DNA of 64,000 bases from contig DAVR01000029.1 of assembly GCA_002507545.1 (NCBI GenBank), forward strand, positions 62,001 to 126,000. Reading direction: 5' to 3'. The translations under genes were made by a program, and so were the position numbers. Origin of the DNA: Archaeoglobus sp. UBA230. GTDB taxonomy: Archaea; Halobacteriota; Archaeoglobi; Archaeoglobales; Archaeoglobaceae. The notes under the pieces are model-generated. The model saw only the letters and a program-made list of their open reading frames with translations, made no database searches and had not been told where the DNA came from. The number at the start of each line of letters is the position of its first letter. Within the stretch, counting starts at the first letter, position 1. This document shows positions 514 through 51,600 of the stretch, piece by piece.

Positions 514-515
514 CC

Positions 516-2122: not shown

Positions 2123-2144
2123 TGGGTAATAGTGACTGTTTGAT

Positions 2145-3131: not shown

Positions 3132-3155
3132 AGGCCTTTGCAGCAAAGCGGAAGG

Positions 3156-3165: not shown

Positions 3166-3184
3166 GACCTGCTACCATGCCTCT

Positions 3185-6059: not shown

Positions 6060-6112
6060 CAATTTATTTTTGTGAGAGAAGTGTTAATGATAATAATAGT
6101 AATAAGTAGTAA

Positions 6113-6122
6113 CAGTTAAATA
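6113..6122 (+). promoter_or_regulatory. Putative promoter in the 6060-6207 gap
   Basis: CAGTTAAATAC resembles an archaeal TATA element. Downstream come a Shine-Dalgarno-like GAGGTG at about 6128 (followed by a possible 11-codon ATG frame) and a strong GGGGGTGAG just before the ATG at 6208. The leader would be roughly 60 bases long, unusual for a mostly leaderless archaeon. Confidence 0.35.
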
Positions 6123-6207
6123 CAAAGAGGTGTGAATATTGTTGATGATGGAAATAAGAATAATTGTAATGATGAGATGAGAAAAAGAGTAAAGGGGGTG
6201 AGGCAAG

Positions 6208-6570: not shown

Positions 6571-6581
6571 CTGGAATGTAG

Positions 6582-7487: not shown

Positions 7488-7507
7488 GTTAAAAGGTTTC
7501 ACAAAAC

Positions 7508-7516
7508 TATAAAAAA
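7508..7516 (-). promoter_or_regulatory. Putative TATA box for ftr
   Basis: On the minus strand TTTTTTATAG ends about 22 bases before the ATG at 7487. This predicts a transcript that starts on or next to that codon and supports the shorter start of Ftr. Confidence 0.45.
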
Positions 7517-7522
7517 GATTTG

Positions 7523-8638
7523 TTATGACTTCATAGCTTCAAGCATAACCTCAGATATGTCCCTCACCTCCAGCTCAACCCCCTCATCCCTCACAGCATT
7601 ATCAAACATCATCAGGCATGCTGGACAGGATGTAACAAGGATGTCAGCAACCTCGCCTGCCTCCCTAACTCTAACTCTTGCTGGGCTCTCTTTACCACCC
7701 AGATAATCCGTGTAAAAGTTTCCACTCCCACCTCCGCAACAGAAGGAATTTTTGCGATTCCTCGGCATCTCGTAGAGGCTTGCAATCCTTGAAAGAATTT
7801 TCCTTGGCTCCTCGTAAACTCCATTCCACCTTCCGAGGAAACAGGGATCGTGGTATGTTACTTTACCCTCCACTCTACCAAGTTTAAGCTCGCCGTTCTT
7901 TACAAGCTCCCAGAGAAGCTGTGTGTGATGTTTCACATCAACCCCATAATAGTTTTTAAAGGCGTTGAAGGAATGTGGGTCAGGAGTGAGAACTCTCTTA
8001 ACCCTCCTCTCCTCAAATTTCCGTTTGTTCTCCTCCATCAGGTGCTCAAAGAGTCCAAACTCACCCATAACCATGGCCTCATTCCCTTCACACCTCTCAT
8101 CGCTGAACACGCCATAATCCACACCAGCAGCATCGAGGAGCTCAACCAAAGCCTTCAGCGCAACCTTGCCCCTCTCATCGTAGGCAGCTACGCAGCCTGC
8201 ATGGAGTAGAAATTCGTTTCCTTCATACTCCTTCTCCACCCACTCCAGTCTTTTCCCAGAATATCCCCAGGGATTGCCGAACTTCGCCAAATTGTTGAAG
8301 AACTCTCCAACCTTCTTCGGAACCAATCCCTTCTCAACCATGTCGCTTCTCGCAGAAATAAACACATCAACAAGTTGCTCGTTGAACTTGAAAACGCAAT
8401 GCTCAACGCAATTTCTGCAGGTTGAGCAGGAATACATGATTTCTCCAAAATGTTCGCTCCATTCCAGTTCCTCATTCATCCAAGCACGAATCAGCCACAT
8501 TCTACCGCCTGAGAAGTAGGTTTCAAAGCGATACACAGCATAGCTCGGACAGTTTATCGCTGAATAGTCAGAAGAGAACTTGCAGTATCCGCATCTGAAG
8601 CAGCGGTGAACAATTTCGGCATAGTTAATTTTTTCCAT
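7523..8638 (-). CDS. CCG-domain iron-sulfur protein (HdrD/GlpC/GlcF-like), subunit of a 2-hydroxyacid dehydrogenase-type complex
   Basis: 371 residues. The N-terminus has two cysteine clusters, CFRCGYC...NC and CSTCRNCVEHC, fitting 4Fe-4S binding. The C-terminal half has the CCG domain with FCCGGGSGNF and then TSCPACLMMFDNA. Such domains bind the noncubane 4Fe-4S cluster in heterodisulfide reductase or mediate electron transfer in lactate/glycolate oxidases. The first CCG repeat is weaker (LLHAGCVAAYDERGK). Its start codon abuts the stop of the FAD dehydrogenase upstream, so they are coupled. Expected role: electron transfer from the flavin subunit to a quinone, ferredoxin or disulfide partner. 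Confidence 0.85.
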   Translation of the reverse strand: MEKINYAEIVHRCFRCGYCKFSSDYSAINCPSYAVYRFETYFSGGRMWLIRAWMNEELEWSEHFGEIMYSCSTCRNCVEHCVFKFNEQLVDVFISARSDMVEKGLVPKKVGEFFNNLAKFGNPWGYSGKRLEWVEKEYEGNEFLLHAGCVAAYDERGKVALKALVELLDAAGVDYGVFSDERCEGNEAMVMGEFGLFEHLMEENKRKFEERRVKRVLTPDPHSFNAFKNYYGVDVKHHTQLLWELVKNGELKLGRVEGKVTYHDPCFLGRWNGVYEEPRKILSRIASLYEMPRNRKNSFCCGGGSGNFYTDYLGGKESPARVRVREAGEVADILVTSCPACLMMFDNAVRDEGVELEVRDISEVMLEAMKS

Positions 8639-10011
8639 TATTTCACCTCCCAGTTTCCGGGATTCATTATGCCATGAGGGTCAAGCAAATCCATTACCCT
8701 TTTCATCAGAATCTTTGCCCCCTCATCCATCCTTTCAAGTATTAGTTGCTGTGCAGGCTCTTCTGCCTTCCACGGAATTCCTCCCATCTCCAGAACTGCA
8801 AGGTTAGTCTCGTGCAAAGCCTTTCTCGCCTTTTCCACATCTTCATCATCAGCCCTGTTGAAGGGATAGGCATACGCGAACATCATGCAGTGAGATCGGC
8901 CAATTATCCTGACACTGAAAGCCCAGTCCACTCCAAGCTTCTCAACAATCTCCAGACCTTTTCTGTATGCTTTATCAAACAGATCAACAGGCAGAATTGC
9001 TCCAACATACTCAAACCCCCCTCCCTTCCTGACGTCTGCAAATCTGACAAGTTGAGACATTGGCTCCTGAAGAAACGTTGCCTTCATTCCTGGCGTGAGG
9101 TAAAGAAAACCGCCCTCCTTCTGTTTTATGTAGTCTCTAAGCGCATTACGGATGATCCTTTCCTTAAACTTAAGCTCCTCCTCGCTATCAGCCGTGATGT
9201 AAATCGTAGTGTGCTGGAATCCCTCAGCCCATTCCGGTCTTGGCTGTGCCCAGACAGTAATGTCCTCAGCCATTTCAGTGTGAGCAACTCTCCAGATTAC
9301 ATCACTCACGTAGGATGGATTTTCGGTTACGAAAATCATGACATCTCTGTAGCGATGCTTCGGGAACAGCTTGATTCCGAGCTTTGTAACTATCCCTGTC
9401 CTTCCGAACCAGCCGATAAACAAGCCCGCGAGGTCGGGCAGGGGGGAGCGAGAGAACCAGTAGGGAGAGATGCTGCAGGAACCAACTCTGCAAATCTCAC
9501 CAGTAGGGAGAACTACCTCCATCCCAGTTACCATCTCAGAGTGAAAGCCATACATCTGAGAAAGCCTTCCGGAACCATGGATCAGTGCGTTGGCAGTGAC
9601 GGTGGCTATTGGTGGTGCGTCTGGAGTTGACAGGCGTAGATTCGGGTAGTTTCTTTCCAGATAAGCCTTGAGCATACCCTCGGTTACTCCAGCCTCAATC
9701 ACAGCGTATCTTGCCTTCTCATTCACCTCGAGGATACTGTCCATCCTCTTCATGTCCATAACTATTCCTCCCTTCAGCGGTCTTACAAGTCCACTGAGAG
9801 CTAAAGCCCCACCCATAGGTACGATCGGAATTTTGTGTTTGTTCGCCACTACCACAATCTTCTGAACCTCCTCAGTTGTTTTCGGCATCACAACGTAGTC
9901 AGGCTCTGTTGCTGGCATCGTGCCCGGGTCAGAGGAGTAGATGTGAAGCTCCTCTGGCTCTTTTGAAACATACTCTTCTCCAACAATCGCCTTAAGCTCC
10001 TCGTAAACCAT
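8638..10011 (-). CDS. FAD-binding oxidoreductase (GlcD/D-lactate dehydrogenase family)
   Basis: About 457 residues. The N-terminal FAD-binding type 4 (PCMH) domain shows VVMPKTTEEVQKIV, PIVPMGGALALSG and the HGSGRLSQMYG region. The C-terminal half is the FAD-oxidase C domain ending in LLDPHGIMNPGNW, the classic GlcD tail. It should oxidise a 2-hydroxy acid or similar C-OH substrate. I place the start at the ATG at 10011, one base after the stop of the preceding gene; an upstream extension would overlap that gene. Sandwiched between two CCG Fe-S proteins and downstream of an aldehyde oxidoreductase, it probably belongs to one multi-subunit redox complex. The exact substrate is not deducible. 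Confidence 0.88.
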   Translation of the reverse strand: MVYEELKAIVGEEYVSKEPEELHIYSSDPGTMPATEPDYVVMPKTTEEVQKIVVVANKHKIPIVPMGGALALSGLVRPLKGGIVMDMKRMDSILEVNEKARYAVIEAGVTEGMLKAYLERNYPNLRLSTPDAPPIATVTANALIHGSGRLSQMYGFHSEMVTGMEVVLPTGEICRVGSCSISPYWFSRSPLPDLAGLFIGWFGRTGIVTKLGIKLFPKHRYRDVMIFVTENPSYVSDVIWRVAHTEMAEDITVWAQPRPEWAEGFQHTTIYITADSEEELKFKERIIRNALRDYIKQKEGGFLYLTPGMKATFLQEPMSQLVRFADVRKGGGFEYVGAILPVDLFDKAYRKGLEIVEKLGVDWAFSVRIIGRSHCMMFAYAYPFNRADDEDVEKARKALHETNLAVLEMGGIPWKAEEPAQQLILERMDEGAKILMKRVMDLLDPHGIMNPGNWEVK

Positions 10012-23002: not shown

Positions 23003-23076
23003 GGGCCGGTAGCTCAGTCTGGTAGAGCGTCGCCTTGGCATGGCGAAGGCCTGGGGTTCAAATCCCCACCGGTCCA
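23003..23076 (+). tRNA. tRNA-Ala (anticodon GGC)
   Basis: A full 74-nt cloverleaf: acceptor GGGCCGG pairs with CCGGTCC and includes the G3:U70 wobble that marks alanine tRNAs. D stem is GCTC/GAGC, anticodon stem TCGCC/GGCGA with loop TTGGCAT (anticodon at 23037-23039), T arm TGGGG-TTCAAAT-CCCCA, discriminator A. CCA is not encoded. No intron is seen. It marks the left boundary of the accessory island; its last 8 bases and the next two are repeated near 53.84 kb. Confidence 0.97.
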
Positions 23077-25039: not shown

Positions 25040-26494
25040 TCATATATTTAGTTTTTCGATGATCTCTGCAAATCTTGCAAGTCTCTCTGAATGGATTGTA
25101 GATTTTAACGATAAAAGAAATTTCATAAAATTGAATTGTTTTTGTAGGCTTTTACCGATAGGCCCGAGATGATGAAATTCACATTCTTTACAAAGTTCTG
25201 CACCTTCTCGGAGTTTTATTCTGTGTAGAGGACAATAGACTAAACTTCCGATTGAATCTTTTTCAATTATTTTGCAATCTTTATGTAAGCAAAATAAATC
25301 AATAATCTCTATGCTATCTCCAAATCGTAGTTTTTGATCAAAACGTAAAATAATATCGAGAGAATCTCTAATTTTACTTCTAAGGTAGAATGGTTTAAAA
25401 TATATTTCATCACCGTGGATCATAAAGAATGGGGATAGATATGCCGAGAAAAACAGGTCTACGTTCTCTAGAAATTGTGGATGTATGTCGCTGACATCTT
25501 TACAAAAACGATAAGTGATGTTTTGTAGAAAATTAAAGACTTTTTTGAAGTCTGTACGTTCCATGACTAGCAATCTTTTCCTTAACAGATAATAATTGTA
25601 CAAAAAAAATGATAAGATATGCCCTAGTATGTATCCGGTGTCTACGCGTTCCATTTGAAAAATTACGTGCTCAGGTATGTGCGAGTCTTCATTACTGGAA
25701 TTTACTTCTTCAAATACTAAGAACGCCACTTTATCACCTTTTTTTAATGTTTCAACTTTATTCTGAATTCTACGGTGATATTTGACGATATAGCTTCGTT
25801 TTCTGCTTTGAGAGTCTAAGTACGGTATTTTCAAAGAAACTTCTCCATCTCGAATGTTTTTTACAATACCAACACATGTTTTAAGATTTACATACTTTTT
25901 TTCGTATTCCTCGCCTATAGTGCGTATGTATATTTTTCTGAAATTTATAGGGCTAACGCGAGCAAAGATCGTTTCCCCTATTTCTTTGAAGTATGGAGCA
26001 TAAAGCCATTCGTAGACTTTACTCTCTTCCACAGATATTCTTTCTGCTCGATAAGGATGAACTTCGTTAGGCAAACGTATTCTATAATTACCTTCAAATT
26101 TTAATGCACGATCTTTTCTACCAGATACTTCTAACAAAATTTTCTCTAACGTCTGTTTGGATTTCTTTGAAGGCCAAAGGACAATAGAAACGAAATTTTC
26201 TAGTTCAGGTGAAATCCCGTGATAGTGTATCCTAAAACTTAAAATTCCGACAAAAGTCTCTTCTCCTGGTGTTTCACCCTTTTCACTGAGCAATGAAACG
26301 GTTATGGGAGCGAGCTCGTCTCCAGAAATTAACCCATTCTTGTCAACATGTATACCATTTTGATTTACAATTTCTAGAACTTTCTCTAAATCTAATTTCA
26401 ATGTCAGGAGAAAATTTTTGCCTCTCTTTATTTTATAAATCTGTAGTTCTTCACGATTCCAAATTTTGTCTAGGAGTTTAACAAAATCTGTCAT
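25040..26494 (-). CDS. Hypothetical protein with C-terminal zinc-binding-like cluster, third gene of Dpd-like operon
   Basis: 484 residues, no recognised domain. The C-terminal ~100 residues carry Cys/His groups [16 protein letters not shown] and LCKECEFHH that could bind one or two zinc ions. The middle is basic and beta-rich ([17 protein letters not shown]), possibly a nucleic-acid-binding barrel. Its start overlaps the stop of the helicase gene by 4 bases, so the two are translationally coupled, pointing to a shared complex. Codon usage looks AT-rich like its operon partners. It may fill the place of one of the uncharacterised Dpd restriction components, but I see no sequence proof. Confidence 0.65.
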
Positions 26495-29400
26495 AATTTT
26501 CCGAACCTTTTTGAATGTATAAGCAGCTTCCTAATCTCCTCGTAAGTTTTTCTAACACATTCTTCATCAGTTGAGAAATGAAACGTCTCGTGGTTTTTCC
26601 ACATTTCTGGAGAGAAATTTGCTGAAGTAAAAATGACCGTCCTATTCTTTGATGAATGAGGATCAATTAATATTATTTTTGAGTGTACAATTCCAGGAAG
26701 ATGATTCTTTAATTCTTCTTTGTAGGTGTACACCTTAATACCGTTCCGGGTTAACTTCTCGAGAGCTTCTTTGTGTCTTATAACCGTTGGTTCTTTTACG
26801 ATGACGTTTATATCTATCTCCCGGTCTAATGATAACTTAATAGCTGAAAGAATGTCAGCCCAACTACGAGGCGGTTCATCAGGCCAATGGATTTTGTCAT
26901 CAGTTATATACAGGCTTGTGATGTAAATTTTTTCCTTTGCACTTCTTAGTAATTCTTTCAATTCTAAAACCCCATCAAAACTATAAACGTCAGAAATTAT
27001 TGTTTTAACGTTTTTACAATTGAAGTAGTTTATAATTTCTGTTGTAGATTCAGGTATCCTCGTTTTAAGATATGTTAATGCTAGTGCTAGTACCCTTTTG
27101 TCGATATATGGAACATCTCTTTTTCTTCTATAAGACCACAGGCAGTTTGGACATCCAGTTTCACAATCACATGAAAGAATCATTTCTGCAGCTTCTCTTA
27201 GTATTGTTCCGAATTTCTCGATAATTTGTGAAACGTAGCCTACTCCTCCATCAACATTGTCGTATAGAATAATCTCTCTTTCTTCCACTTTCACTTCGCC
27301 GTCTATCTCTCCATCTTGTGCAAAGAGTACTTTTTGAGCTGCATTTATGATCGCATTTTTCAAAGTGGTCAAGAAAACTTTCAGATCCTCTTCACGAAGT
27401 TCTGTTCCAAGTATCTTGCTAACGTTTTTTGGGATCTTTATAGAGATAACGTTAGTTGGCATCCTGTGATATAGAGCTATTTTCTTAAACTTCCCATCGC
27501 AGATTTCTTTTCCTTTTCCGCCCATTTTTCTGTGTTTAGTTTCTGACAGTTTTTCTCTCATTTTTCCGCACTTTTCGCATAACTCAATTGGTCTCTCTTC
27601 ACCATTGATAACGACTTTGTCAACAATTTTTATGAGTTCAATGTTTCCATAATCTACAAGTTTAAGATTAGGGTCGAGTGAGCAATCTATTACCCTTCGT
27701 GGCTGTTCAGTAAAAAATATATTAGAAACAGCTTCCTGGTAATATCTCAACTCAAATACATTTTCAGGCACTCTCTGAACGTAGATTATGTTTGGCTCGA
27801 TTGCCTCTAATTTATGTAATTCAACATTATTTTTGGTGTTGTGGCTTCCGCATAGTGGACATTTAGGTATAAGATCATCCACGTCTGTTGTAATAAATCT
27901 CTCACAACGCGGACATATGTAGAAGATTTGCTGATTTGGTTTTAAGATTTCCATGTCGATTCCTACAGACTTGTAGATCTTCTTTTTTAGAAAGATTCTC
28001 ATGAGTGGAGCACATTCTGTAATTGCAATACTTCTAGAACGGCCTTCAAAACTTTCATACTCGTACAAGTCTCTTATTTCTACATATACCCCCGGAAAAG
28101 CGTAGCGTGGTAGGACATTGACGTCCATTAAATACGATATTACTGAATTTTCCTCTAAGCGCTTGATAAGCTCGTCTATTCTTTTAACTTTTTCCCAGTC
28201 TCTCTTTTGTTCAAAGTATTCTCTATAGTTTCTATAAGTTTCGATTTCACGGTTAAATCTCTCTAAAGCTTCTTTGAGCTGTTCTTTGAATTTTTCGACC
28301 ATTTCTAGGATTTTCTGGTCATTGAGGTAAGGATATGGGAGATCTCCAAATACTCTACTAATTTTTTCTATTATCTCTATTTTACGACTCTCTATCTCTT
28401 TAAACATATTTTGTAGGATATCCTCGTCAAACTCGGAGATTTTATTGGGATACAAATTTTTGGAGTGTACAAAGAGTATTTCAATGATGGTTGCATTTAC
28501 ATGTTTTTGAAGAAGATATTGATTTGTTACGTCTATCTTGGGCGCTTCGAATTCTCCTCTGATTAGTTCTTCGGGGTGTTCATAGTAGTATCTGTCTATG
28601 GGCGAAAGGTACAAGAAAGTATTATTGAAGGCTGTTCTTTCTTTTCTACCTGCTCTACCAACCCGTTGGATATAATTAGCAGGAGAAGGTGGAGCTTTGT
28701 ACAAACCTACAGAAATTAAATCGCCAATATCTATTCCTAATTCAAGAGTTGGTGTTGCAGCTATAACGTCATACTTCCTTCCTTCAACCATGTTTTTCTT
28801 AAATTCTGTTTCGACTTCATGTCTCTCGTCAAGCGGTAGTGCGCCTGTATCTTCTGCGGTGGACATTTTTACTGGTTCATCTTTTTGGTAAAGTTGGAAG
28901 TAGTAGTTCGAATTCTGCATTGCAAATTCTCTATAATCCAGGGCTTCCAAAGTGCCTTGGCAACCGTATCGGGGGCAGATATTAGATGGAGAAGCCGTGA
29001 ATACGCGCTTACACTTCTTGCAACGGAGTATTCTTGTGGGAATCTTTATAATTATTTTGTTATCATTGATTACATATCCATTTGCCTCATCGCGGTAATA
29101 TTTTAACTTTTCACTAATTAAAATATTCATCTGCTTTAAAAACTCAAAACTAGCTTTGAGTATCTGTTCTATCTTGCCTTTATTCGAAGTGTTGAAGGCT
29201 TTTTTGGTTAGAGATGAAGCTGTCCTCTTAGCTAATAGATCTCTTATTCTTACGCCGCCTTCTCCTTTTCTAAAACCTACTGAGTATCCGACAACATAGT
29301 CTCTAGTAGGAGGAGTTTTGTCTAGACCTTTTATCGCTCCATCATGTCGCAAAATATGTAACAAAGAAATTAAGTACTCTCTCCAGAGTGAAATATTGTC

Positions 29401-30654
29401 CTTCTTTGGAAGGTCTTTTTCAGAAGAGAAGATTCTCCACACAGAGGAAAACTCATCATAGTCTTCGAGTCCTAAATAAGTAACTTCTATCAAGCCTAAA
29501 CTCTCTAGTGATCTCTGTGCAGCAGTAGAGCAAATCTCTTCTAGGAGTTTTGATCTAATCCAAATTTTTGTATCTCGATCCAGGCCTATATACCAGTCAT
29601 AGATATTTCTATACAATGCATCTTCAAGAAGTTCAGGAAGAAATATTCGCTGCTTAAACTTTACTATTTTGTATAATAAGGTTCTTATAGTGTGATCAAA
29701 ATGTGTATCTTCAAGTCTTTTTGCAAGGTATGAAGCAATTTGTCTATTGTCTGTGAATATTAGAAGTTTTTTGAATTGTTTCGGTAATACTGTATAGATT
29801 TTATCAAACACAACTGTACTTGCTGTGTCTGAGCTCATGAGTATTGGGCTTAGCGCCGAGTATGGTCCGTAGCTATTACCGCAATAAGGGCAATTAATAA
29901 CTCGAGTATCCTTTTTAAGTACAATTTTCCTTTCCACTTCGTAAACTCTTGGTCTAACAAATATGTACGCTTTTCGAATATCTATAGAGCTACAGAGTGG
30001 GCATGTTGCGTCTTCAGGAGTTAGTATTGCTCCGCAATCTAAGCATCTATTTACTTGTACATAACCCTTCTTTATCTCAGGAGGCTCCTCGTACGAGATC
30101 CATAATGGAATTGAATTTGCGGAGTACTCAGATGAATACGAAAGTTTTGCAATTCTTTTAGAGATCCCATTATGCTTAGGAAGATCGAAATATTTTGATA
30201 TTTTCTTCTTCAACTTATTTTTGTCTGAGTACTCGTTAAACCATTCTACAAACTCGTTTTCGGCGACGTAGATAATATAGAATTCATGACCGCAAAATCT
30301 GCAAACTCCAACTTCGTCAACTGAGGCTTTACAGATTTCACACTTATCTCTTGGTGTGATAAAGATTTTTGAGCATTTGTTGCATTTGTATACTCTTTCA
30401 ATCGTCTTAAAGAAGTTATGTACAGTGACGCTAATCAAAGGAAGTGTGGGACTATTCGGGTTTGGAAGCCTACTGCCGAGTTTTAGGTAGCTCCATATCA
30501 CGTTTTCTAAAGTTTCAGAATCCATATTTGCTATTAGTTCAGATAGTTCTCTCCTGCTACGAATTTTATGTAAAATTTCCTCCAAACTTTGTGGTTTTTG
30601 TAGTTCGGTAATTAAAAATTGAAATAGAGGATTTTGAAGTAGGGCCTCGCTCAA
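26491..30654 (-). CDS. SF2 helicase C-terminal half with DUF1998 (MZB) and phospholipase D domains; continues the 30966-31901 frame across a frame break
   Basis: The annotated ATG at 30654 gives 1,387 residues, but the frame is open further up and encodes helicase motif III ([10 protein letters not shown] at about 30,930), so the true protein continues from the upstream frame (total about 1,800 residues). Seen in order: several zinc ribbons ([46 protein letters not shown]); helicase motifs V/VI ([13 protein letters not shown]...[12 protein letters not shown] near residue 650); a DUF1998 block ([14 protein letters not shown] with [12 protein letters not shown] near 1,100-1,160); and a C-terminal PLD domain with one HKD motif (HSKIILID...[11 protein letters not shown] near 1,330). 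A single HKD implies a dimeric active site. Helicase, DUF1998 and PLD are separate genes in DISARM; helicase and PLD are also found in Dpd clusters. Confidence 0.85.
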
Positions 30655-30965
30655 GATCTCTAATTTTGATTTACCCTCCTTTGAAGCGTATTCTGAATTG
30701 ATTTTTCTTAGTATATTCCTAAAAGTAGTCTCATCAATCGATTTCTCTAAATCTACTATATCAACTTCTTCTATTGGTTCGAGGGTTTTTAGTTCTATAG
30801 GTTTAGGAAAACTGTACGGTTCGAATGTAGCTTCGACTACATCTTCAATACTAAATTGAGAGCCGAAAATACTACTCGCAAATTCTGCTATCTTCTTCTT
30901 TCTTTCTTGCTCATTTTGTATACTTGAAAGTGTGGCGCTTGTTCCTATACAAATTATGTTGTTTC

Positions 30966-31901
30966 CTATATTCTTTCTTTTAATCTTCTTATTAAAAAGG
31001 CAATGTCTATTCCTTTGGAACCTGTATATGTATGAATTTCATCCAAAACGACGAATTTAACAGCTTTCTTATCCAGCCAAGAACTATCCTTCTTTCTAGT
31101 TAGTATGTGCTCTAGTTGGACGTAATTAGTAATTAGAATATCTGGGGGGTTTTTCCTCATTCTATCCCTTGTTAGTATCTGATATCCAAACTTTACACTT
31201 TTGTTTAGTGGACAATACAAAACCTCATCATTAGCAGAATATCTAATTTGCTTTGTATCACAGTTTTCGGGGCAACCATAAATTCTCCTTTCCAAATCAG
31301 TTAAAAAACAATTTTCTGTAAACCTTTCTAATTTTTCGAGTTCTCGTTTATCTTTGGGGGTATCGCCAGTATATATAGCAAAAGTGATTTTCTCACTTTC
31401 TGGCAAGTCTTTATTAAGTGTCCACAGGATTTTGCGCAATCTTTCTACTTGATCTTTAGCGAGCGCATTCATGGGGTAAATTAAGATAGCTTTAACACCT
31501 GGCTCTCCTCTGTGCTCATAGCAGTATTGTAGTATAGGTATCATGAAGATCTCTGTTTTACCGCTTCCTGTAGGTACTGCTGCTATTACGTTCCTACTAT
31601 CTATAATTTTGCTAATTGCTTCTTCCTGATGTACGTAAAGTCGTTGTATGTTGGAAAAAGCCTTTTTAACAGCTTGACTGATTCTTTCCCTCTCAAATTC
31701 TATGAAGAGATCTCCTTGTTTTATGGGTGGTAGAATGGAGATATAAGGTCCGCGCCAAAGATACTTTGTAGGAATTTGCTCTCTAAGAAGTTCTTGAAGC
31801 TCTTCGTTATTAGGTGCGAATGATGTTAGGAAGAATTCAAAGTACTCTCTTTGGATGTTTTCAGTAGCTTCAAGAGGATTAAACACGCTTTTTATCAACA
31901 C
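30966..31901 (-). CDS. SF2 helicase N-terminal half (DEAD/DEAH ATPase core), broken from its C-terminal half by a frameshift
   Basis: 311 residues with Walker [12 protein letters not shown] near 112, motif Ia [13 protein letters not shown], a cysteine set CPENCD/CPLNK, motif Ib/Ic region [15 protein letters not shown] and a DEIH box [14 protein letters not shown] near 285. It ends abruptly at LIRRLKERI-stop just before motif III would be expected. Motif III is present a few codons later in the -1 frame. Both frames are open between about 31,040 and 30,968, so a single lost base (or -1 recoding) there explains the split. No canonical X-XXY-YYZ slippery heptamer in phase is visible. The start overlaps the end of the DpdA-like gene by about 23 bases. 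Confidence 0.85.
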
Positions 31902-33135
31902 TTGTAGACACCTCGAGGGACTTGAGTGAATCCAACCACTTTTTCATTTGACCAAGTCTCTCCCCTATTTTTCCCTTTAAACATATTACATTTATTCTTC
32001 TATTATTTGAAACTAACTCTTCCAACCATCCATCAAGTACTACAAGATAATCATTTCCCAAATTAATTAAAATATCAGAATAATTATTAGTTTTTATTAT
32101 TGTCTCTAAATGTTTTGTGATTGAAGCCCTTAGTTCGCTGGCTCTTCTAGAATTCATGCGTAAGTCATACTTTTTAATTGGTTCAAAAGCTTCTATGAGA
32201 CCGTATTTAGCAGAAATTATGTAAACATCCAGAAATGGTATGTTGGCGTATTTTCTTAGAAGTTTAAAGAAGGGACCATCATAAAGGTCTATCGCTGGGA
32301 GCTCGCCTTTTATGTTCTTTTTTGTTTTCGAGCAAGGAATTATAAGTAATTTCCTTTTTATTTCAAGGTAATTTGAAAATACGTTAGTGTAAAGATATTT
32401 TTTAACTTGAATAAATCTTCTTTCCCTCAATTCCTCTTTACTTTTAGTGCTTTTTTCTTCGGGGGTAGGAGGTTTATAATTTAGAATCCAGCCCTTATAA
32501 TCAGCTCCAAATATTTTGTAACTTCTGAATAATTCAATCCTTTTGGGGTGGAAACAGCCCAACAAAAATAGCCAATCGTTGGGATATTTTGCTCTAATTT
32601 TTGCAACTATGTTTTTTAGAAAGTTCTCATCCCTAACTCGAACGTATCTGCTTGAATTCTCTATTTTTTTCAAAAGACCACCAATTGCTATGTACTCATA
32701 TCCTAGTTTTTTCAGTTCTTTATAACACTCAAGATATTCTTTTACGTCATTTCCTTGTGCTACACCAACTAATTTAAAACGATAATCACCATCTTTATAA
32801 ATTCTCATCGCTTCGTTTGCACTCTTTATTGTTTTATCTTTATTTTTGAGAACATCAATAATAACTCCAAATTCTACATCCATTTTTTCATAAGTTTCAA
32901 ACAAGCTAAAGTAGTCATGTTTACAACCATCTTTTGAGAAAACGCCAGAATCCACCATTTTTATAATATTTTTCTCTTTATAATTTTTGAATTCTCTTTG
33001 GAAATTTTTCGATGTGTTTGCATGACCCATAAGACCGATTCTGAACGGTAGTTTGTTTATTTCACAGAACTTTAGAAGTTCTAGAGACATAGGCCTGTCA
33101 ACAACAAAAAACGGAATGGGGTATACTGTTCTCAT
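31879..33135 (-). CDS. TGT-like DNA/RNA base transglycosylase (DpdA-like) fused to YaaA/DUF6884-like domain
   Basis: 418 residues from the ATG at 33135; the frame also allows a GTG at 33153. Residues 1-240 follow the tRNA-guanine transglycosylase barrel order: VDSGVF (62-66, cf. DSGGFQ), GVIIDV, VGVAQG (125-128, cf. VQG), IAIGGLL (152), LLGCFHP and FGADYKGW, with Asp212 where the catalytic Asp is expected. The CxCxxC zinc site of tRNA enzymes is not visible. Residues ~262-400 begin LLIIPCSKTKK and contain DLYDGPFFKLLRK and IISAKYGLIEA, the pattern of YaaA/DUF6884-like proteins. In bacterial Dpd systems DpdA inserts preQ0 into DNA, and DUF328 (YaaA) protein DpdC converts it to the amide form. 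The fusion may do both, on DNA, and not in tRNA archaeosine synthesis. Confidence 0.75.
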   Translation of the reverse strand: MRTVYPIPFFVVDRPMSLELLKFCEINKLPFRIGLMGHANTSKNFQREFKNYKEKNIIKMVDSGVFSKDGCKHDYFSLFETYEKMDVEFGVIIDVLKNKDKTIKSANEAMRIYKDGDYRFKLVGVAQGNDVKEYLECYKELKKLGYEYIAIGGLLKKIENSSRYVRVRDENFLKNIVAKIRAKYPNDWLFLLGCFHPKRIELFRSYKIFGADYKGWILNYKPPTPEEKSTKSKEELRERRFIQVKKYLYTNVFSNYLEIKRKLLIIPCSKTKKNIKGELPAIDLYDGPFFKLLRKYANIPFLDVYIISAKYGLIEAFEPIKKYDLRMNSRRASELRASITKHLETIIKTNNYSDILINLGNDYLVVLDGWLEELVSNNRRINVICLKGKIGERLGQMKKWLDSLKSLEVSTSVDKKRV

Positions 33136-33136
33136 T

Positions 33137-33283
33137 CTAGGTCCCTTTTTCACAATTTAAAAATGAATTAGAGAATTTCTCAGTGTTTTTAGTCCCATTT
33201 TTGTACATAGATCCACATCTCTCTACTGATCTATCCAGAGCTCCTTCGTAACACATTAAAATTTTTGGAGTTTCTTGAATCAT
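33137..33283 (-). CDS. Small ORF (48 aa) leading the Dpd-like operon
   Basis: A short frame from an ATG at 33283 (MIQETPKILMCYEG...) to a TAG one base before the ATG of the DpdA-like gene. A good GAGAGGTG ribosome site lies just upstream, and a TATA-like region further upstream. It holds three cysteines (MCYEG, RCGSM, NCEKG) but no recognised motif. It may be a real small subunit, or a leader frame that couples translation to the DpdA-like gene. Its stop/start arrangement also supports choosing the ATG at 33135 for the latter. Confidence 0.5.
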   Translation of the reverse strand: MIQETPKILMCYEGALDRSVERCGSMYKNGTKNTEKFSNSFLNCEKGT

Positions 33284-33596: not shown

Positions 33597-33943
33597 CTAA
33601 TTCTCCATCTCCTCAAGAATTCTCTCAATCTTCTCCTTCAGTTCCGGCAAATCCCTCTCAACAATTTCCCACACGAGATCAAGATCAACTCCGAAATACT
33701 CATGGATGAGTATATCCCTCGTTCCAGCAATCTGCTTCCATGGCACATCCGGGTACCCTATCCCTGAAAGTCCTGCGGAATGTTCTTGACAGCCTCTCCT
33801 ATTATCTCGAGTCTTCTCAGAACTGCATCCTGAACCTGATGATTTTCCATGAACTCCTCTCTGCTCACACCCTCTGTGTACTCCTCTATCCTCTCTATGC
33901 TCTCAAGAACGTGCAGCAAAAAAGTTTTCACATCCTTCTTCAT
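33597..33943 (-). pseudogene. HEPN-domain toxin of an MNT/HEPN pair, frameshifted
   Basis: The intact frame (33758-33943) gives 61 residues ending KNIPQDFQG. In the -1 frame the protein continues as YPDVPWKQIAGTRDILIHEYFGVDLDLVW to EEMEN, the normal second half of DUF86/HEPN proteins. That half includes the Rx4H motif RDILIH needed for RNase activity. The break lies at about 33,760-33,770. Rejoined, the protein is ~115 residues, the usual size. It overlaps the MNT antitoxin gene upstream by 4 bases. As it stands the toxin's active-site half is out of frame, so it is probably inactive. Confidence 0.8.
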
Positions 33944-34233
33944 AGAATATCAACCTTCTCCCTGAGAATTCTCTCCCTGAGAAGGGGATGGAGGGATTTG
34001 TAGGTTAAAACATCAACGTCTCTCTTCAGCTTCTCCTCGAGCTCTATCTTAAGCCCTGCAAGATCAAGCAAGCTCTTTCTTCCCTCGAATTCCACCAGCA
34101 AATCAATGTCGCTATCTTCGCTCATCTCCCCTCGCACGACAGAGCCGAATAGACTTGCTCTCTTCACTCCATACTTCCTGAGCACCGGAATCATTGCATC
34201 CCTTATTTCCTCAATGGTCTCCATCTCCAGCAC
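33940..34233 (-). CDS. MntA-like minimal nucleotidyltransferase antitoxin
   Basis: 97 residues with the polymerase-beta nucleotidyltransferase motif GSVVRGEMSEDSDIDLLVEF (GS-x-R-G ... D-x-D). In MNT/HEPN pairs this protein AMPylates a tyrosine near the Rx4HxY motif of the HEPN RNase and blocks it. The partner HEPN gene follows with a 4-base overlap but is frameshifted, so the antitoxin remains without a functional toxin. Confidence 0.88.
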   Translation of the reverse strand: MLEMETIEEIRDAMIPVLRKYGVKRASLFGSVVRGEMSEDSDIDLLVEFEGRKSLLDLAGLKIELEEKLKRDVDVLTYKSLHPLLRERILREKVDIL

Positions 34234-34267: not shown

Positions 34268-34894
34268 TCACCTGACTATCTCAATTCTGCAGCCCTGCTT
34301 CTCACCGATAATCCTCTTCACCCTCTCAGCAACAACTTCATCGGGAACTACAAGGATGACATCCATACCTCTCCGCACGTTTTTCTCGTAATTTCTCAAA
34401 ACCTGCTCGGGATGATCCGCTCTCACCTCAACCTCTATCGCAGTTTTTCTCCATCCATCATCAGTTCTTTTGAATGCAATCATATCCGGCTGCTCCTCCC
34501 TGCCTCGCTGCGGTGGGAATATGACAGCGTAGCCCTGAGCTCTCAGCATGTCAGCATAAGCCCTTGCAAGCTTTGTGTGCAACTCGCCGCCTGTCCTTGC
34601 AGCTCCACTATGCCCGCAGCAGAGCCCAAGTCCCTTCTCCGATAATTCTGCCATGATTCTCGGTCTTCCCTTCTTCTTTCTTTCAACCCTCCTCGTAACA
34701 AAACCGAGTTTCTCTGCCCTCCCAACCAGAGCTGACACATCACCAGCGCTAATTCCAGGTCTGATTTTCCTGTACTCCTCAAACAGCTCGCTCATGCTCA
34801 TGCTACCTTTCAGCAGGATGTTGAGAAGCTCGTATATCTCCGGCTCTTCCTGAGCGATCTCTTCATCATCACCGATCTCAAACATCGCGCGCAT
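34268..34894 (-). pseudogene. TraG/HerA-like ATPase, third piece: winged helix and nuclease-like C-terminus
   Basis: A 208-residue frame, but the frame stays open upstream of its ATG and reads EELAEKLVSLPDGKAIACI then RGEFGGEARIVELTTLPVIY, the natural continuation of the ATPase in 34948-36027 after a one-base frame change near 35,030-35,045. It contains a winged-helix region (SMSELFEEYRKI...VSALVGRAEKLGFVTRR), a GLCCGHSGAAR loop, and a C-terminal domain with PDMIAF and TAIEVEVR, a PD-(D/E)XK-like core. Together with the other two pieces it forms one gene of about 840 codons that is now broken twice. Confidence 0.6.
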
Positions 34895-34947
34895 TCTTTC
34901 CAGAACGTGGGAAAGAAAGGAATTCCTGTAGATTACCGGAAGGGTCG

Positions 34948-36027
34948 TTAGCTCGACAATCCTTGCCTCACCGCCAAACTCTCCGCGAATGCATGCAATT
35001 GCCTTTCCATCTGGGAGAGATACAAGTTTCTCAGCAAGCTCCTCCCTCCGAAACTCCTTGCAATCACCCTTGCATCATCTCCTGAGACTCTGAATGCAAT
35101 CTTTATGCCTGCGTTGCCAAGTATGTCATTCAGAAGCGCCTCAGGGAGTTGCTTAGTGTGCTGGTGTGCGAGCACCGCTCCCAGACTGTACTTCCTGCCC
35201 TCCGAGATTATGTTTCCCAGGGTTTCGAGATGGGAGAACAGCTGGAACTCATCCAAAAAGAGCACGACTGGAAACCGCCCACCCCTCGAAAGAGCTGCAA
35301 ACCACACCCTTGTTATCACCGCAGAACCAAGAAGTGTGCTCACAGCTTCAGATAGCTCACCTCTCGGCAGCCTGAAGATAACGAGTACTCTCTCTTTAAT
35401 GAGCTCCTCGATCCTCACCGAGGACGGCTTTCTGCAGAGTATCCTGCTCAGAAACCTGTTGTTCACAAATGGCGCGAGTTTGTTGAGAACAGCATCTGTT
35501 CTTCCTCTGGGCAGCTTTTTCAGCTCCTCCTGAAACTCCCTGTCATGCATTTTACCGCTCACGAGGTTGTAGAGATCTTTCATCGTTGGGGAATCGTCTC
35601 TCTCGTACAGAACTCGAAGCCCATCCTGAAATATCCTGTTCAGCGACGGTCCCCAGTACTGCCTGCCGTAGAACTTTCTGAAAAACTCCGTGATCTCTCC
35701 GATGATTCTCTCAACAGCAATCTCCCTGTTCTCATAGCTCTCCAGTTCCAGCGGATTCAGGGAGAACCTCACCCTGAGAGGATCAAAGAGATAGACGTTT
35801 CTCAGGTCAGCAGGATTCACAGCTCTCACGACGTCGAAAGCAAGCTCTCCATGCGGATCGATCACAATGCAGCATGCTTTTTCCTCAAACGCCTGCACAG
35901 CCTCATTTGCCAGAAGTGTGCTCTTTCCAGTTCCTGTAGCACCGATGACATGCTGGTGCTGCATCAGCTCATTGCTTACGTCTATTTCTATTTTTGAGAG
36001 ACCTCGAACTCCCAGTACCACGCCCAT
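34948..36027 (-). pseudogene. TraG/VirD4-HerA-like DNA-transfer ATPase, central ATPase domain
   Basis: 359 residues with Walker A HVIGATGTGKSTLLANEAVQ, ACCIVIDPHGELAFDVV, and Walker B VVLFLDEFQLFSH followed by GAVLAHQHTKQL. Such ATPases pump DNA in conjugation or partitioning. The protein starts at the GVVLGVRG segment that in family members follows an N-terminal ~250-residue region; that region lies at 38091-38882, beyond an inserted opposite-strand gene. Near 35,035 (a GGAGGGAGGAG run) the frame slips so that the last ~30 residues are out of frame relative to the natural C-terminus. The Walker motifs are intact, so a truncated product is conceivable, but I regard the gene as disrupted. Confidence 0.7.
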
Positions 36028-42362: not shown

Positions 42363-44045
42363 ATGGTCAGGATTGCTACAGCCGTTGACAAAAAGAACGT
42401 TGAGGATATTATTAGAGAGACTGAAATCAATTACTACTGTTTGCCTACCTTTCAGAGAGATTTTGTGTGGGACGAAGATGACATAAAAGAATTCATCGAT
42501 TCAATAATAAAAGGTTGTCCCATAGGCAGCATAATACTTTGGAGGCCCTCTAGAGAATTTTACAAAAATGATCCATTTACAAGATCCCTTATAGGATCCC
42601 CGGAAAATGCTGAAAATAAGGACATTTACTATGTTATAGATGGGCAACAGAGACTTACAAGCTTACTACTGTTATTTAATAACTGGAAAATTAAAAGAGA
42701 TGATGAAGAGATCGCCAAAAGTCCGATCTCAATTGTTGTTGGAAAGGACTCTTATAGACTGTACAAATCCGAAAAGAAGGGAACAAATTTATATGAGGCA
42801 ATTAAAGCCTTTGCTAGCAATCCTGCAATGCGCGACTACGAAATCCAGCGAAAAATAGAACGACAGCTAAGTTCTGAAGCTCAAGAAATGTTATACAAAA
42901 TTATCGGTAAAATCTTAAGCTACGAAATTCCAATTTATATCCTAAGAACAACACATGAGGATGAAACGACGTTCTCCGAGATGGCTGAGGCTTTTACTAG
43001 GGTAAATAAGGCTGGTGTGAGAATCGGGAATGTAGAACTTATGCTTTCATTCATAGCCGGGAGGATAAGGGGCCCACTAAAAAACGAAATAATATCAATC
43101 TACAAAAATCTAGAGGCGTTCAAAATAGACCTGCAGCCAATCATCAGATGTGTCCTTTCTCAATTTGAAATACCACAGACCGATATAACGAAAGTTAAAC
43201 AATTTGATAGAGTCATTGATAGAATATTAAGTATTCCTGAAAAAGAAATACTAGCAAGACTGGCGGACGCGAGAAATTCATTACAACTGGCTGTTAACTT
43301 TTTAGGAGAACGACTGGGGATAAAGGATACGAGGATTCTACCAAGCCAAGTACCCATCATTACAATTGCTAGGTACTTTTCATCAAATGGAATAACAAAT
43401 CTTAGTCAACTAGACGAGAGGAGTTTGGAGTTAATTGAGACTTGGTTCGTACTTGTGAACTTTAATGGGTATTACAGTTCTAACACAGACACGAAGCTAG
43501 AATCGGATTTAAAGATCGTAAAAGAGAGAGGAAGTTTTCCGTTTGAAGAACTATTAGAAAACATAGAGAGGAGGAGAGCTAGGGTAAAAATAGGTAGGAA
43601 AGATTTGGAAGAGGGTTTAAGAATAAATGTGTTGAGAGGGAGAGTCGGAAAATCTTATCTGTTTTTGTTATACATATTATTAATAAAAAATGAAGCAGAT
43701 GATTGGACAAACAGAAAAATTAGGGAGAGAGATTTTGACGATTTGGCAAAGCACCACATATTTCCTAGAGAGTTTTTGCTAAAGAACTTGGAAATAGAGG
43801 ACGAGAATCCTGACATCTACGTTAATAATATAGGCAATATAACTTTCATTGACAAATCATTGAACTCAGAAATCGGAGATTCAGATCCAATTTACCTGAG
43901 AAACCATAGTCTGTCATTAGAAAGACATTTTATTCCTAGAGAAGAAAACTTGTGGAAAATTGATACTTACGAAGCCTTTCTGAAGAGTAGAATAACTATG
44001 ATCCATACCAAAGCAAAGGAAGTGTATCCACACATTTTTGAATAA
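42363..44045 (+). CDS. GmrSD-like DUF262/DUF1524 nuclease (type IV restriction-like)
   Basis: 560 residues. The N-terminal DUF262 domain has PTFQRDFVWDEDDIKEFIDSI, GCPIGSIILW and the ParB/Srx-like IDGQQRLTSLLLL near residue 95, used for NTP binding/hydrolysis. The C-terminal DUF1524-type HNH region has AKHHIFPREFLLKN near 465 and NNIGNITFIDKSLNSEIGD. GmrS and GmrD halves are thus in one chain, as in single-protein GmrSD enzymes and relatives that cut DNA with modified bases. Its presence beside a base-modification-type operon is notable, because such enzymes can attack modified phage DNA. AT-rich, apparently monocistronic. Confidence 0.88.
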   Translation: MVRIATAVDKKNVEDIIRETEINYYCLPTFQRDFVWDEDDIKEFIDSIIKGCPIGSIILWRPSREFYKNDPFTRSLIGSPENAENKDIYYVIDGQQRLTSLLLLFNNWKIKRDDEEIAKSPISIVVGKDSYRLYKSEKKGTNLYEAIKAFASNPAMRDYEIQRKIERQLSSEAQEMLYKIIGKILSYEIPIYILRTTHEDETTFSEMAEAFTRVNKAGVRIGNVELMLSFIAGRIRGPLKNEIISIYKNLEAFKIDLQPIIRCVLSQFEIPQTDITKVKQFDRVIDRILSIPEKEILARLADARNSLQLAVNFLGERLGIKDTRILPSQVPIITIARYFSSNGITNLSQLDERSLELIETWFVLVNFNGYYSSNTDTKLESDLKIVKERGSFPFEELLENIERRRARVKIGRKDLEEGLRINVLRGRVGKSYLFLLYILLIKNEADDWTNRKIRERDFDDLAKHHIFPREFLLKNLEIEDENPDIYVNNIGNITFIDKSLNSEIGDSDPIYLRNHSLSLERHFIPREENLWKIDTYEAFLKSRITMIHTKAKEVYPHIFE

Positions 44046-48465: not shown

Positions 48466-48687
48466 ATGGAAGTTAGGCATATTACAGCTCGTTTTGCTTG
48501 GCACGATAGTGACTGGAATGGCAAGATATGTAGAAGTCCTTCAGATAATATCTACTGTCGAGGAAACCACTCTTTATTATCAGCTAGACTTCAGAGAAGA
48601 ATGAATCTTGAAATTGAAAATGAATACAAAGAAAAACCTCTAGGTGAAGTTATAGGAAGTAATGGATACTCTCCACCTTGTTATTGG
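48466..48687 (+). CDS. N-terminal piece of the SF1 helicase-nuclease, out of frame with the main ORF
   Basis: The frame from the ATG at 48466 encodes ITARFAWHDSDWNGKICRSP, CRGNHSLLSARLQRRMNLE and PLGEVIGSNGYSPPCYW. The HDSxWNGxIC pattern is the typical opening of a family of large AAA/RecD-like ATPases. It then runs out of register: the remaining protein (LLVIDPHPFSDLEW onward) is in the -1 frame, with the change near a TTGGTT run at 48,680-48,690. The frame itself stays open, meaninglessly, to 48876. One lost base would explain the split. Confidence 0.65.
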
Positions 48688-51600
48688 TTATCGATCCTCA
48701 TCCATTTTCTGACCTTGAGTGGGCAAAAGAAGATTTTAAATCTGTGGAACCTTTACAAGAAGAACTCGAGGAGTTCTCTATATTCACGTGGTGCTTTAAG
48801 TTATCCTTTGCTGAAGAGGGCTCACCTGAAGGAAGATATCCAGCAAATCTTGAAGAGAGGGTCGAGAAATACCTAAATAAGATAATTCCCGGAAAATCTG
48901 TAGTATTTTTTTACGCTAATTACAGCAACCCCATTACAGGTGACGACTACAAAAGATTGCTCCTTGGTGCTGCACTTGTTAAAGAAGTGAAACCTCCTAA
49001 AAGATACAGATTTCCCAGTGATCTACTGGAAAAGATAAGAAGAGGAAAAGGTATGCAGAATTTCCCTGATATTGCGTGGCAGTTCAGAATAAAACTTGAC
49101 TATGAAACAGCGTTCGTATTGCCATATAGTAGGTATCTAAAGTGGATTGACGAAGCAAAAGACGATGGGGAAAAAGGGAGGAGACAGAAGCTCTTAACCG
49201 AAGTGGCAATACCCATTGATGAGCCAACCTTACAGCCAGCTTTCAAATACGTCTCAATGCAGCTATCACACGATCAGGCACTTTACCTTGTTTACTTATT
49301 GAAAAGATCTTGGAAAAGAATGAAAGAACATGGTTTAATTCCTAGAGACATCTTGAACGACATTTCTAATAAACTTGAAAAAATTTTGAGTGAACTCTGG
49401 AAACAGAGAGGAAAATATCCTGGATTCAGGAATGCAGTAAAGGTTCTTTTAAAGCATGATTTTGGCGAAAAGTCCGAAGAGATAGCTGAAAAACTTGAGG
49501 AATTGATAATTGATAAATTTGGTGATATAACCCCATATCTTGAAAAATCTGAGAAGATTGAAGTTGACGACTACAGGATTAAAAAAGCTCTAGATAAGCT
49601 TGGGAAAGAGAAGGAAAAGCTCGCTTTCATTTCTCTCTTTGACTTCTCAGTTCTGCAAATGGAAAGGGTAATGGAAATAATTGATAGAAAAGGCTTCAGA
49701 ACTGTAAAGACAAATCCATATTTGCTGGTAGAGGAATATACGCACGACCAGAAAGAAGACTGGCTTTTAGATCAGAGCGATCCCGGCATTGACGTTTATA
49801 ATATTGATATGGCTCTTATTCCAGATCCCAATTTTGCTGAATGGTATTTTGAAGGATTCGATGCAACCTCTCCTTTTAGAATTAGAGCTATCATCTCAAA
49901 AATTCTCTTAGAAACTGCACTTTTTACGGGAGATACATATCTTACTAGGGGAGAAATTCTAGAGGAAATCAAGGACTATCCACTGTATTATATTGGTGAA
50001 GATCTACAAATAGAAGAGTCAAAGCTCAGGGATTATGAAGCATTACAGACATTCAAAGAAAAATTCGTCTTAGATACTGAGCCAGAAACAGGTGAAACCA
50101 TCTACCAGCTTAAGTTAATCAGAAATGTCGAGGAAACCATTGAAAAATTCATTAAAACTATGCTCAAGAAGAAATATTCTATTTCCACTGATGATGAGAC
50201 TTTCATCCATGAAGCGATAAAAGATGACCTCTCACGAGCACAAATAGAAGTCGATGAAGATTCTCTGAAAAAGGAAAGAGGGCTACTGTATCGAAATGCG
50301 TTTGAAAATGGTCTCTTCATCGTATCTGGAGGGGCAGGAACTGGGAAAACTCAAGCTATCATTAATCTGATAAAACATTTCAGAAAAAAGGAGAAAGGAC
50401 GGATATTTGTTTTTTCACCAACAGGAAAGTCGAATCTGGTAATTAGGAATAGATTGAGGGATTTAGGCCTACACAATGATCCCATGGTCAAAGTTTCCAC
50501 AATTCATAGGTTTTTATATGGGGGATTAATTGATTCCATGAGGGAGGCTGGAATTAGCATTAACAGGTATTTTGTCGATATTAAAAAATTGAACGAATTT
50601 ATTACAAAAATACTGGACGGAAAAATAAACATATTTGTTGAGTTCCAAAAACTGGCAGCCAGATGGAAATTCAATCCGTCTGTTGTGATACTTGATGAAG
50701 CCTCAATGGTAGATGAAGTCACTTTAGCTGTTTTGTTTTCTATGATAAATGAGCAATCATTAAAACATCTCATTTTGGTTGGAGACGTAAAACAATTACC
50801 TCCGATTGGGGCGGGAAGACCGTTCTCTGACATAATATTCTTCCTCAAAAAAGAAGGATACGAAGAAAACATGGTGTGTTTAAAGAATAATCTGAGATTT
50901 TTGCCAAATTCATCCATTGGCGGACTTTCTGGCATCTTTGCAGATGATGAAAAACCGACAATTCAAGAACTGGAACACTTCTGCGTCCAAAATGATGATA
51001 CAATGGAAATTATCAGTTTCAAAGAGCTGGAAGATCTGAAGAAAACTTTACAAAAAATACTTGCGAAGATTTCTGGAAAAGACCACTCTGATAGAAGTTT
51101 GTTCGAATTATTCAAGGAAGTCTTCAAGGATGGAGAGAACATTGAATACGTTCAAGTACTCACCCCAAGAAGGGTTGGCGAGTTCGGGAGCTGGGGTCTG
51201 AACTTGAAAGCTGTTATGGAGGGGCGATCTGGCATTCTACCCGGTTCTAAACTCATCTGTGAAGAAAATATCTACATAGATGTCGAGAAAGCTGGTAGAA
51301 AACAGAGAGTACTTGGATTGGCAAATGGGTCTATAGGATATCTAAAAGAAAATAGATATCTCAAGTTTAGGGAGATTGGGGAAATATACCAAGAATACGG
51401 TAAAAGTGGTGGCTACCAGATTGTTGAAAGAATTCGACAAGATATAGAAAATCCACTAAAAACTGATAGGAGTATAGATTTAGCATACGCAATCACGGTG
51501 CATAAATCTCAGGGAAGCGATTTCGATTACGTTATTCTTGTTCTTAAGGATGTAACATCATTTGTTACTCGAGAACTCATTTATACTGCTTTAACGAGAG

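Follow-up and report, generated by a model that had tools for sequence, protein, structure and literature searches.

A putative one-chain DNA-deazaguanine enzyme in a compact Archaeoglobus operon with a helicase-nuclease

Deazaguanine marking of DNA is known from viruses and from bacterial islands of several genes; for the BRIGADE loci of haloarchaea it has been predicted. In the bacterial Dpd systems, the DpdC step converts dPreQ0 to dADG, and DpdB is reported to be dispensable in some clusters (PMC12839542); the GATOR-GC study lists dpdC of dpd islands as DUF6884 (PMC11888242). BRIGADE, introduced in 2025 as a Dpd/ARMADA hybrid, joins a predicted deazaguanine cluster to YprA helicases and is described from halophilic archaea only (sections cited of PMC12458937). 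Here we describe a minus-strand operon in a 64,000-nucleotide stretch of Archaeoglobus sp. UBA230 (contig DAVR01000029.1, positions 62,001 to 126,000; hereafter the window), which encodes a transglycosylase (TGT, after tRNA-guanine transglycosylase) fused to DUF6884, a YprA-family helicase with a PLD nuclease domain, and a 484-residue protein. With moderate confidence, we favor reading it as a Dpd/BRIGADE-like operon for DNA modification and restriction, in which a deazaguanine self-mark made by one polypeptide is combined with interchangeable restriction motors.

The three genes run from 33153 to 25040 in the order given above, and are tightly packed with overlapping ends: the transglycosylase stop and helicase start overlap by 23 nt, the helicase stop and the start of the 484-residue gene by 4 nt. 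This layout agrees with the first-pass annotation, made from the sequence alone, as does the fusion of a TGT-type domain to a C-terminal domain with the IIPCSKTKK pattern (Table 1). The ATG start of the first gene is the likelier one, because of the comparison with a relative (L041). Among its six PADLOC rows, DpdA scores best (2.2e-13), followed by PDC-M57A (1.1e-12) and, further down, DpdC (1e-5). Pfam assigns DUF6884 (1.4e-15), with YaaA slightly under the cut-off (1.8e-6) and DUF5591 below it (1e-4). The membership is a distant one: the NCBIfam DpdA match (1.2e-12) reaches 47 bits against a cut-off of 200, and the Pfam TGT match is sub-threshold (E 0.047, 13.2 bits against 26.3). Across the aligned family, PADLOC finds DpdA in 14/14 sequences and DUF6884/PDC-M57A in 11/14.

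Structural comparison points in the same direction. In a profile search of the PDB, DpdA (7ui4) is the sole sequence at E < 1 (0.0013). A model built from the 14 sequences has a predicted local distance difference test score (pLDDT) of 85 and a predicted TM-score (pTM) of 0.63, the latter meaning that the mutual placement of the two domains is uncertain. Foldseek against the PDB puts DpdA 7ui4 first for this model (E 1.3e-8), with tRNA TGTs behind. In VIA-align, 7ui4 reaches Z 18.8 with a root-mean-square deviation (rmsd) of 3.1 over 235 residues at 17% identity; tRNA TGTs tie with it on Z at rmsd 4.2-4.8 over 267-273 residues and 10-11% identity. Matches to archaeosine TGTs alone, which by the first-pass annotation would have refuted its reading, were hence not what was obtained.

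The residues expected of both activities are largely retained. D68 and D218, which we take to be the counterparts of the two catalytic aspartates of TGT, are invariant in 16/16 rows, window included. The CxxxK motif, C274-S-K-T-K278 in the window, has both its Cys and its Lys in 11/14 rows, again with the window included; CxxxK and LSAxxG are the motifs described for DUF6884 (PMC11701544). Profiles and modeled fold identify the first protein as a divergent DpdA domain fused to a DUF6884/DpdC-type domain. This would place both known steps of DNA deazaguanine formation in one chain, as the first-pass annotation had proposed.

Table 1. Features of the operon (window coordinates; all on the minus strand)
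Feature	Coordinates	Strand	Details
DpdA-like transglycosylase-DUF6884 fusion	31879..33153	-	424 aa from GTG; 418 aa from ATG 33135
TGT (DpdA-type) domain	32464..33126	-	residues ~10-230; D68 (DSGVF), D218 (DYKGW)
DUF6884/YaaA-like domain	31942..32352	-	residues 268-404; CxxxK (C274, K278), ISAKYG
Helicase N-terminal open reading frame	30966..31901	-	311 aa; RecA1, Walker A, DEIH (motif II)
Helicase frame overlap, break between motifs II/III	30966..31038	-	from reading frames and alignment
Helicase C-terminal frame	26491..31038	-	1515 aa open; first listed start TTG 30654
MrfA zinc-binding domain (MZB)	27139..27363	-	Pfam 6.2e-16
PLD-like nuclease domain	26527..26961	-	PLDc_2 3.6e-14; one HxKxxxxD, residue 1452 of C-terminal frame
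484-aa protein	25040..26494	-	without credible family match; CPLH (421), CKEC (435) patch
48-aa open reading frame	33137..33283	-	ATG 33283; listed from GTG 33313 as 58 aa

The fusion recurs well beyond this operon, which the first-pass annotation had missed: it also occurs with NurA-HerA, SIR2/CARF-like and BRIGADE-like genes. We counted 15 other distinct loci in which a relative covers most of the protein. A phylum search gave matches in 54 of 392 genomes, five of which entered the count (G113, G120, G130, G158, G387), and a scan of 84,980 species' genomes matched 73 stretches and yielded 13 loci; the three shared loci (G120, G387 and G113, identical to L044, L046 and L051) were each counted once. 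Because the scan used only two conserved TGT peptides, its 13 loci are a sample rather than a census. Excluded from the count were DUF6884-only matches (e.g. L007-L020, L026, L027), the partial match in G296, and TGT-part matches inside frames of 737-970 aa (G046, G078, G161, G185, G225, G235, G288, G331, G334).

Twelve of the 15 loci carry NurA-like, HerA-like and TGT genes in one order, with the HerA DUF87 domain found by Pfam in all 12 second genes. The named hosts among them are methanogens, Methanoperedens, Methanophagales, other Euryarchaeota and two cyanobacteria. The remaining three differ. At a contig start, L047 shows the end of a HerA gene before the TGT; L048 carries a SIR2 (ThsA-like) gene and a CARF-like gene overlapping the TGT; and L045, from a Heimdallarchaeota metagenome-assembled genome, encodes in overlapping frames DrmA (1.3e-77), DrmB (1.6e-24) and DrmC (1e-25), followed by the TGT. 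L024 likewise has a SIR2 homolog, at 30% identity, which is two genes away from its TGT and on the opposite strand. The first gene of the L045 run (294-9942) encodes 761 aa, with an Alba-like stretch below cut-off. By eye, the NurA-HerA-TGT operon of a Methanoculleus (L052:9917-14776) is accompanied by a SIR2-like gene and by a further HerA-like gene in convergent orientation, and a stand-alone DUF6884-type gene overlaps a run of UvrD/AddAB-like genes in L026 (8549-12537).

A TGT tree (14 sequences, 220 columns) places L041, a NurA-HerA locus, as sister of the window protein (support 0.93), and L045 within the same six-member clade (support 0.996). Since the sister is accompanied by NurA-HerA instead of a YprA helicase and the DrmABC-linked relative shares the clade, the effector partners have changed and the enzyme has stayed. 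Whether a portable mark of DpdA-type plus DUF6884 domains plugs into unrelated YprA helicase-PLD, NurA-HerA, SIR2/CARF-like and even DISARM machinery, replacing methylation in the last case, across archaea and some cyanobacteria, is to our minds evenly balanced. Among viral contigs neither the TGT nor the helicase had a relative, and phages (10/10 records) and plasmids (best 25 of 60) gave only partial matches, all covering the DUF6884 part. Text searches of the open literature, main texts only, did not find a pairing of NurA with DpdA; for tRNA-guanine transglycosylase with HerA and defense they gave only the paper on BREX-Related Capture (BRC; PMC12839542). The cited parts of the DUF6884 literature (PMC11888242, on bacterial dpd islands; PMC11701544) describe no such operons.

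With Dpd, the window operon shares a DpdA-type transglycosylase, a DpdC-type DUF6884 domain, a YprA-family helicase and a PLD nuclease, and the helicase, DUF1998 and PLD domains fit the restriction-type role first proposed for them. In contrast to Dpd, the window fuses DpdA with DpdC and helicase with PLD, its helicase is closer to DruE than to DpdJ, and among the matches listed it has no DpdB, D, E, G, H, I or K, DpdF appearing only as a weak helicase cross-match.

The likeness to BRIGADE extends to the archaeal host, the ARMADA-side YprA helicase, the PLD nuclease and a TGT chain with C-terminal DUF6884. A BRIGADE-like locus in G046 (L062, L054), a genome that is probably haloarchaeal judging by its acidic proteins, encodes a tandem pair of helicases, a PLD protein and two TGTs, one of them a DpdA of 967 aa that ends in DUF6884. 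The BRIGADE label is our own, from gene content, and we assign no type, because the two helicases have diverged, unlike the near-identical Type II pair. Its two TGT genes, the second of 344 aa, lie at L054:8539-12574. The window operon differs in having one helicase (split in two reading frames) rather than two, a fused rather than separate PLD domain with no separate PLD or PD-(D/E)xK nuclease gene, and no second TGT in the operon; moreover, the TGT of the BRIGADE-like locus is a close DpdA (3.8e-73), whereas that of the window is distant (2e-13). At least one YprA match at E <= 1e-20 is present in the host genome (best 2 of 11 candidates). As BRIGADE has been described and the TGT chain of G046 also ends in DUF6884, we regard the window operon as a compact relative of a known Dpd/BRIGADE kind, perhaps a 'minimal Dpd-like modification-restriction system'.

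DISARM is related through L045, where DrmA, DrmB and DrmC stand beside a relative of the window TGT; the window itself has a helicase that is not DrmA-type, fused domains and no methyltransferase match in the operon. DISARM systems carry a PglX-like methyltransferase (PMC12458937), which the TGT may replace in L045, where the contig breaks off ahead of the first gene. Like the window operon, Druantia III has a single YprA-family helicase with C-terminal PLD, but DruE III has two PLD domains where the window protein has one, the window gives no DruH match, and here a base-modifying partner is present. No PADLOC match to DruH or another Druantia partner was obtained for the 484-aa protein, and none of the six rows of the TGT protein is a Druantia family. 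Finally, BRC, which comprises HerA/FtsK and TGT, resembles the present loci in that a TGT has been recruited to a DNA-translocase defense system; it differs in its PglZ, DUF6079, DUF4007 and STAND parts, and DpdB/DpdC homologs are given as not detected in the part cited (PMC12839542). Unlike BRC, the NurA-HerA-TGT loci consist of three genes, and 10 of their 12 TGTs keep the CxxxK of DUF6884.

The first-pass annotation had likened the helicase to those of DISARM and Dpd. PADLOC instead ranks DruE families highest (DruE1 7.6e-87 against DpdJ 2.8e-12 for the C-terminal part, DruE2 5.1e-43 against DpdJ 4.7e-30 for the N-terminal part), with DrmA below DruE. The DruE match is weakly specific, since DruE models also match the other archaeal YprA-type helicases scanned (3/3). 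We built a FastTree phylogeny of 14 helicases (1134 columns), with references labeled by gene order (ARMADA II of E. coli, L076; ARMADA I of Natrinema, L078; BRIGADE-like G046). The window helicase sits on a long branch beside the G046 helicases with a support of 0.46, and we do not claim BRIGADE membership from it. The protein is a deep member of the ARMADA/BRIGADE/Druantia side of the YprA family, with no closer filing. YprA-type helicases elsewhere in the phylum share 25-38% identity along parts of their length (best 2 candidates per genome). For its mechanism, Druantia III DruE, reported as a helicase-nuclease acting on intermediates that contain single-stranded DNA (PMC13192584, preprint), would be a fair model.

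The predicted ~1,800-residue helicase-DUF1998-PLD protein holds as to its domains and single HKD motif; it is encoded not in one but in two open reading frames. The N-terminal frame stops right after motif II and 'RRLKERI', and the other picks up before motif III to continue through CxxC-rich insertions (11 CxxC pairs in the C-terminal frame), RecA2, MZB/DUF1998 and PLD. In an alignment of 14 helicases, all 12 full-length YprA-family relatives are unbroken across this stretch, where the Heimdall DrmA aligns poorly. A true frameshift would leave the restriction arm dead here and the transglycosylase as a solitary marking enzyme, and the apparently interrupted gene 0.3 kb upstream (33597-33943; by eye) would fit this. 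Against it, the motifs are present in both halves, including an undamaged PLD motif, and the break, if real, should therefore be recent; assembly error or translational frameshifting are alternatives to it. We consider a dead restriction arm a substantial possibility, somewhat short of even, and one compatible with the Dpd/BRIGADE-like reading.

Availability of preQ0 in the host, which the first-pass annotation had anticipated, is indicated by a QueC gene (8e-71) with a QueD-type gene 0.8 kb from it. Among the 15 genomes carrying a relative, QueC is found at E < 1e-50 in 13 and above the family cut-off in all 15. The presence of strong QueC in 13/15 sampled hosts speaks against a type IV-like sensor or eraser, in which TGT-DUF6884 would detect or remove viral deazaguanine and the helicase-nuclease or NurA-HerA would destroy the viral DNA. 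The retained active-site aspartates, as in inserting transglycosylases, and the self-marking role of the corresponding Dpd gene (PMC12839542) argue in the same sense. Such a sensor would nevertheless have targets and company: archaeal viruses encoding deazaguanine enzymes have been reported, with dADG detected in Halovirus HVTV-1 (PMC6884629), an interaction with DNA lesions is reported for YfjM, which belongs to DUF6884 (PMC11701544), and the region also encodes a GmrSD type IV enzyme (42363-44045). Weighing both sides, we consider this role improbable.

An RNA-modifying enzyme, archaeosine-type or a variant, that stands beside DNA genes by accident would be less probable again. The host has three further TGT-model matches: the ArcS-type L068 (TGT 5.5e-11, over the cut-off; DUF5591 6.5e-50; PUA), a second TGT that precedes it by ~0.7 kb, and one on a different contig. 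By their domains, we take L068 and its neighbor to be an ArcTGT/ArcS pair. The match besides this pair is a strong TGT-family gene (L066, G000:C28:72696-73859; 7.7e-132). The window protein fell below the TGT model at E 0.001 in the host-genome profile search. With these other TGT-family genes and with QueC and the QueD-type gene present, the window protein appears to be an additional TGT whose substrate the host can supply. ArcS, too, combines a TGT-like chain with DUF5591; L068 has a similar broad architecture, and the window protein shows the weak DUF5591 match noted above and the string PCSKTKK, which resembles PCTARKPY of L068. Lysine is transferred to preQ0 by ArcS (PMC11298593), in whose searched text a CxxxK-type motif is not mentioned; both the ArcS domain and the DUF6884 domain of the window might attack the preQ0 nitrile. 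Yet the archaeosine-type genes are already in place, the window protein has neither a PUA match in Pfam nor a TGT score over the cut-off, whereas L068 has both, DpdA is its best PADLOC family and best or tied-best fold, and its relatives occur in tight operons with NurA-HerA or DrmABC. We give equally little credence to a DNA repair or end-processing operon unrelated to invaders, since the patchy distribution (full protein in 1/59 class genomes), low GC and changing partners, one set of which is the DISARM core, outweigh the facts that a base-handling enzyme stands with a helicase/nuclease or with NurA-HerA, a known archaeal end-resection pair, and that DUF6884/YaaA members are tied to DNA damage or oxidative stress (PMC11701544).

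Several observations weigh against a Dpd/BRIGADE-like modification-restriction operon. That the NurA-HerA loci act against viruses is in turn a presumption. A single-sequence PDB search reaches DpdA at E 0.22 only. The Cys of CxxxK is lost in the Heimdall relative (L045) and in both cyanobacterial ones (L050, L053), with no Pfam DUF6884 in L045 or L050; because the motif is lost in three relatives, the second step would seem dispensable to the module. QueC-family matches are weak and partial in G120 and G396 (1.5e-4 and 3.5e-4). DpdB was not found for the TGT and 484-aa proteins, nor among the matches listed for six further proteins of the window and for the two parts of the helicase. NurA is weakly assigned: Pfam finds it at E <= 0.01 in 8 of the 12 first genes (best 1.4e-4). 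The helicase frame is broken, and the 484-aa protein lacks a credible family. The three genes, expected in the first-pass annotation to co-occur elsewhere, were not seen together again in the neighborhoods covered, namely the 15 loci and a few helicase loci; as two helicase candidates per genome were scored and only some neighborhoods were covered, a related trio may have escaped notice.

The 484-aa protein has the zinc motif noted at first, in the form of a short Cys/His patch. No credible family match was found in Pfam, NCBIfam, PHROGs or PADLOC, and no match at all in 391 other genomes of the phylum, plasmids or viral contigs. Its PDB matches (at best a retinoic-acid-binding protein, E 0.016) were judged to be chance, and a model from one sequence (pLDDT 31) was discarded. 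Direct comparison shows it to be unlike the first gene of L045. The 48-aa open reading frame proposed upstream of the transglycosylase lacks support as a gene: it has no match in Pfam, NCBIfam or PHROGs and, since HerA precedes the transglycosylase there, no counterpart in the NurA-HerA loci; it was not searched for elsewhere.

The operon has a GC content of 0.348 compared with 0.423 for the whole window, and the full first protein occurs in 1 of the 59 genomes of the host's class, the host itself, with fragments or partial matches in four more (e.g. G296, residues 94-142). This composition and distribution hint at acquired DNA. Immediately upstream lie a nucleotidyltransferase reading frame, presumably MNT-type, and then an apparently interrupted, presumably HEPN-like gene (33597-34233, minus strand; by eye). 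Further along, a small protein with a weak CARF_TM match (9.2e-5) adjoins a HerA/Mad8-like ATPase (34268-36027, minus strand; mad8 1.3e-17), and the GmrSD enzyme (GmrSD_N 3e-31) is encoded on the plus strand. The segment 44430-53820, with a phage-type integrase, a Cdc6-like ATPase and a large UvrD-type helicase, is likely an integrated element in a defense-rich stretch, without a flanking repeat found. A repeat search of the window gave no repeat of >=20 nt tied to the tRNA-Ala gene at 23003-23076, and one 31-nt repeat family, inside 48539-50139.

How might a modification-restriction operon of this kind work? By analogy with Dpd, the TGT domain would take preQ0 from the archaeosine pathway of the host and insert it into host DNA in exchange for guanine. 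The DUF6884 domain would then convert the nitrile, probably via Cys274 and most likely to the amide (dADG), like bacterial DpdC, and the converted base would mark the DNA as self. As modeled on YprA/DruE enzymes, the helicase may load on exposed strands of unmarked DNA, which the fused PLD nuclease would cut; as a guess, the zinc protein of 484 aa could determine DNA specificity or connect the two arms. The marking enzyme would be portable, as its relatives with NurA-HerA, DISARM DrmABC and SIR2/CARF-like genes suggest.

If this is true, deazaguanine-based restriction systems form a family whose effectors are interchangeable, and the window represents its YprA-PLD form. The marking chemistry would seem to be condensed into a single gene, found next to four kinds of effectors, three of them seen once each; hypermodified bases could then take the place of methylation as self-signal in modular defense. 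The likeness of the enzyme's CxxxK motif to that of ArcS suggests a common nitrile chemistry for RNA and DNA enzymes. A single-gene writer of DNA deazaguanine would be easily testable and a useful tool.

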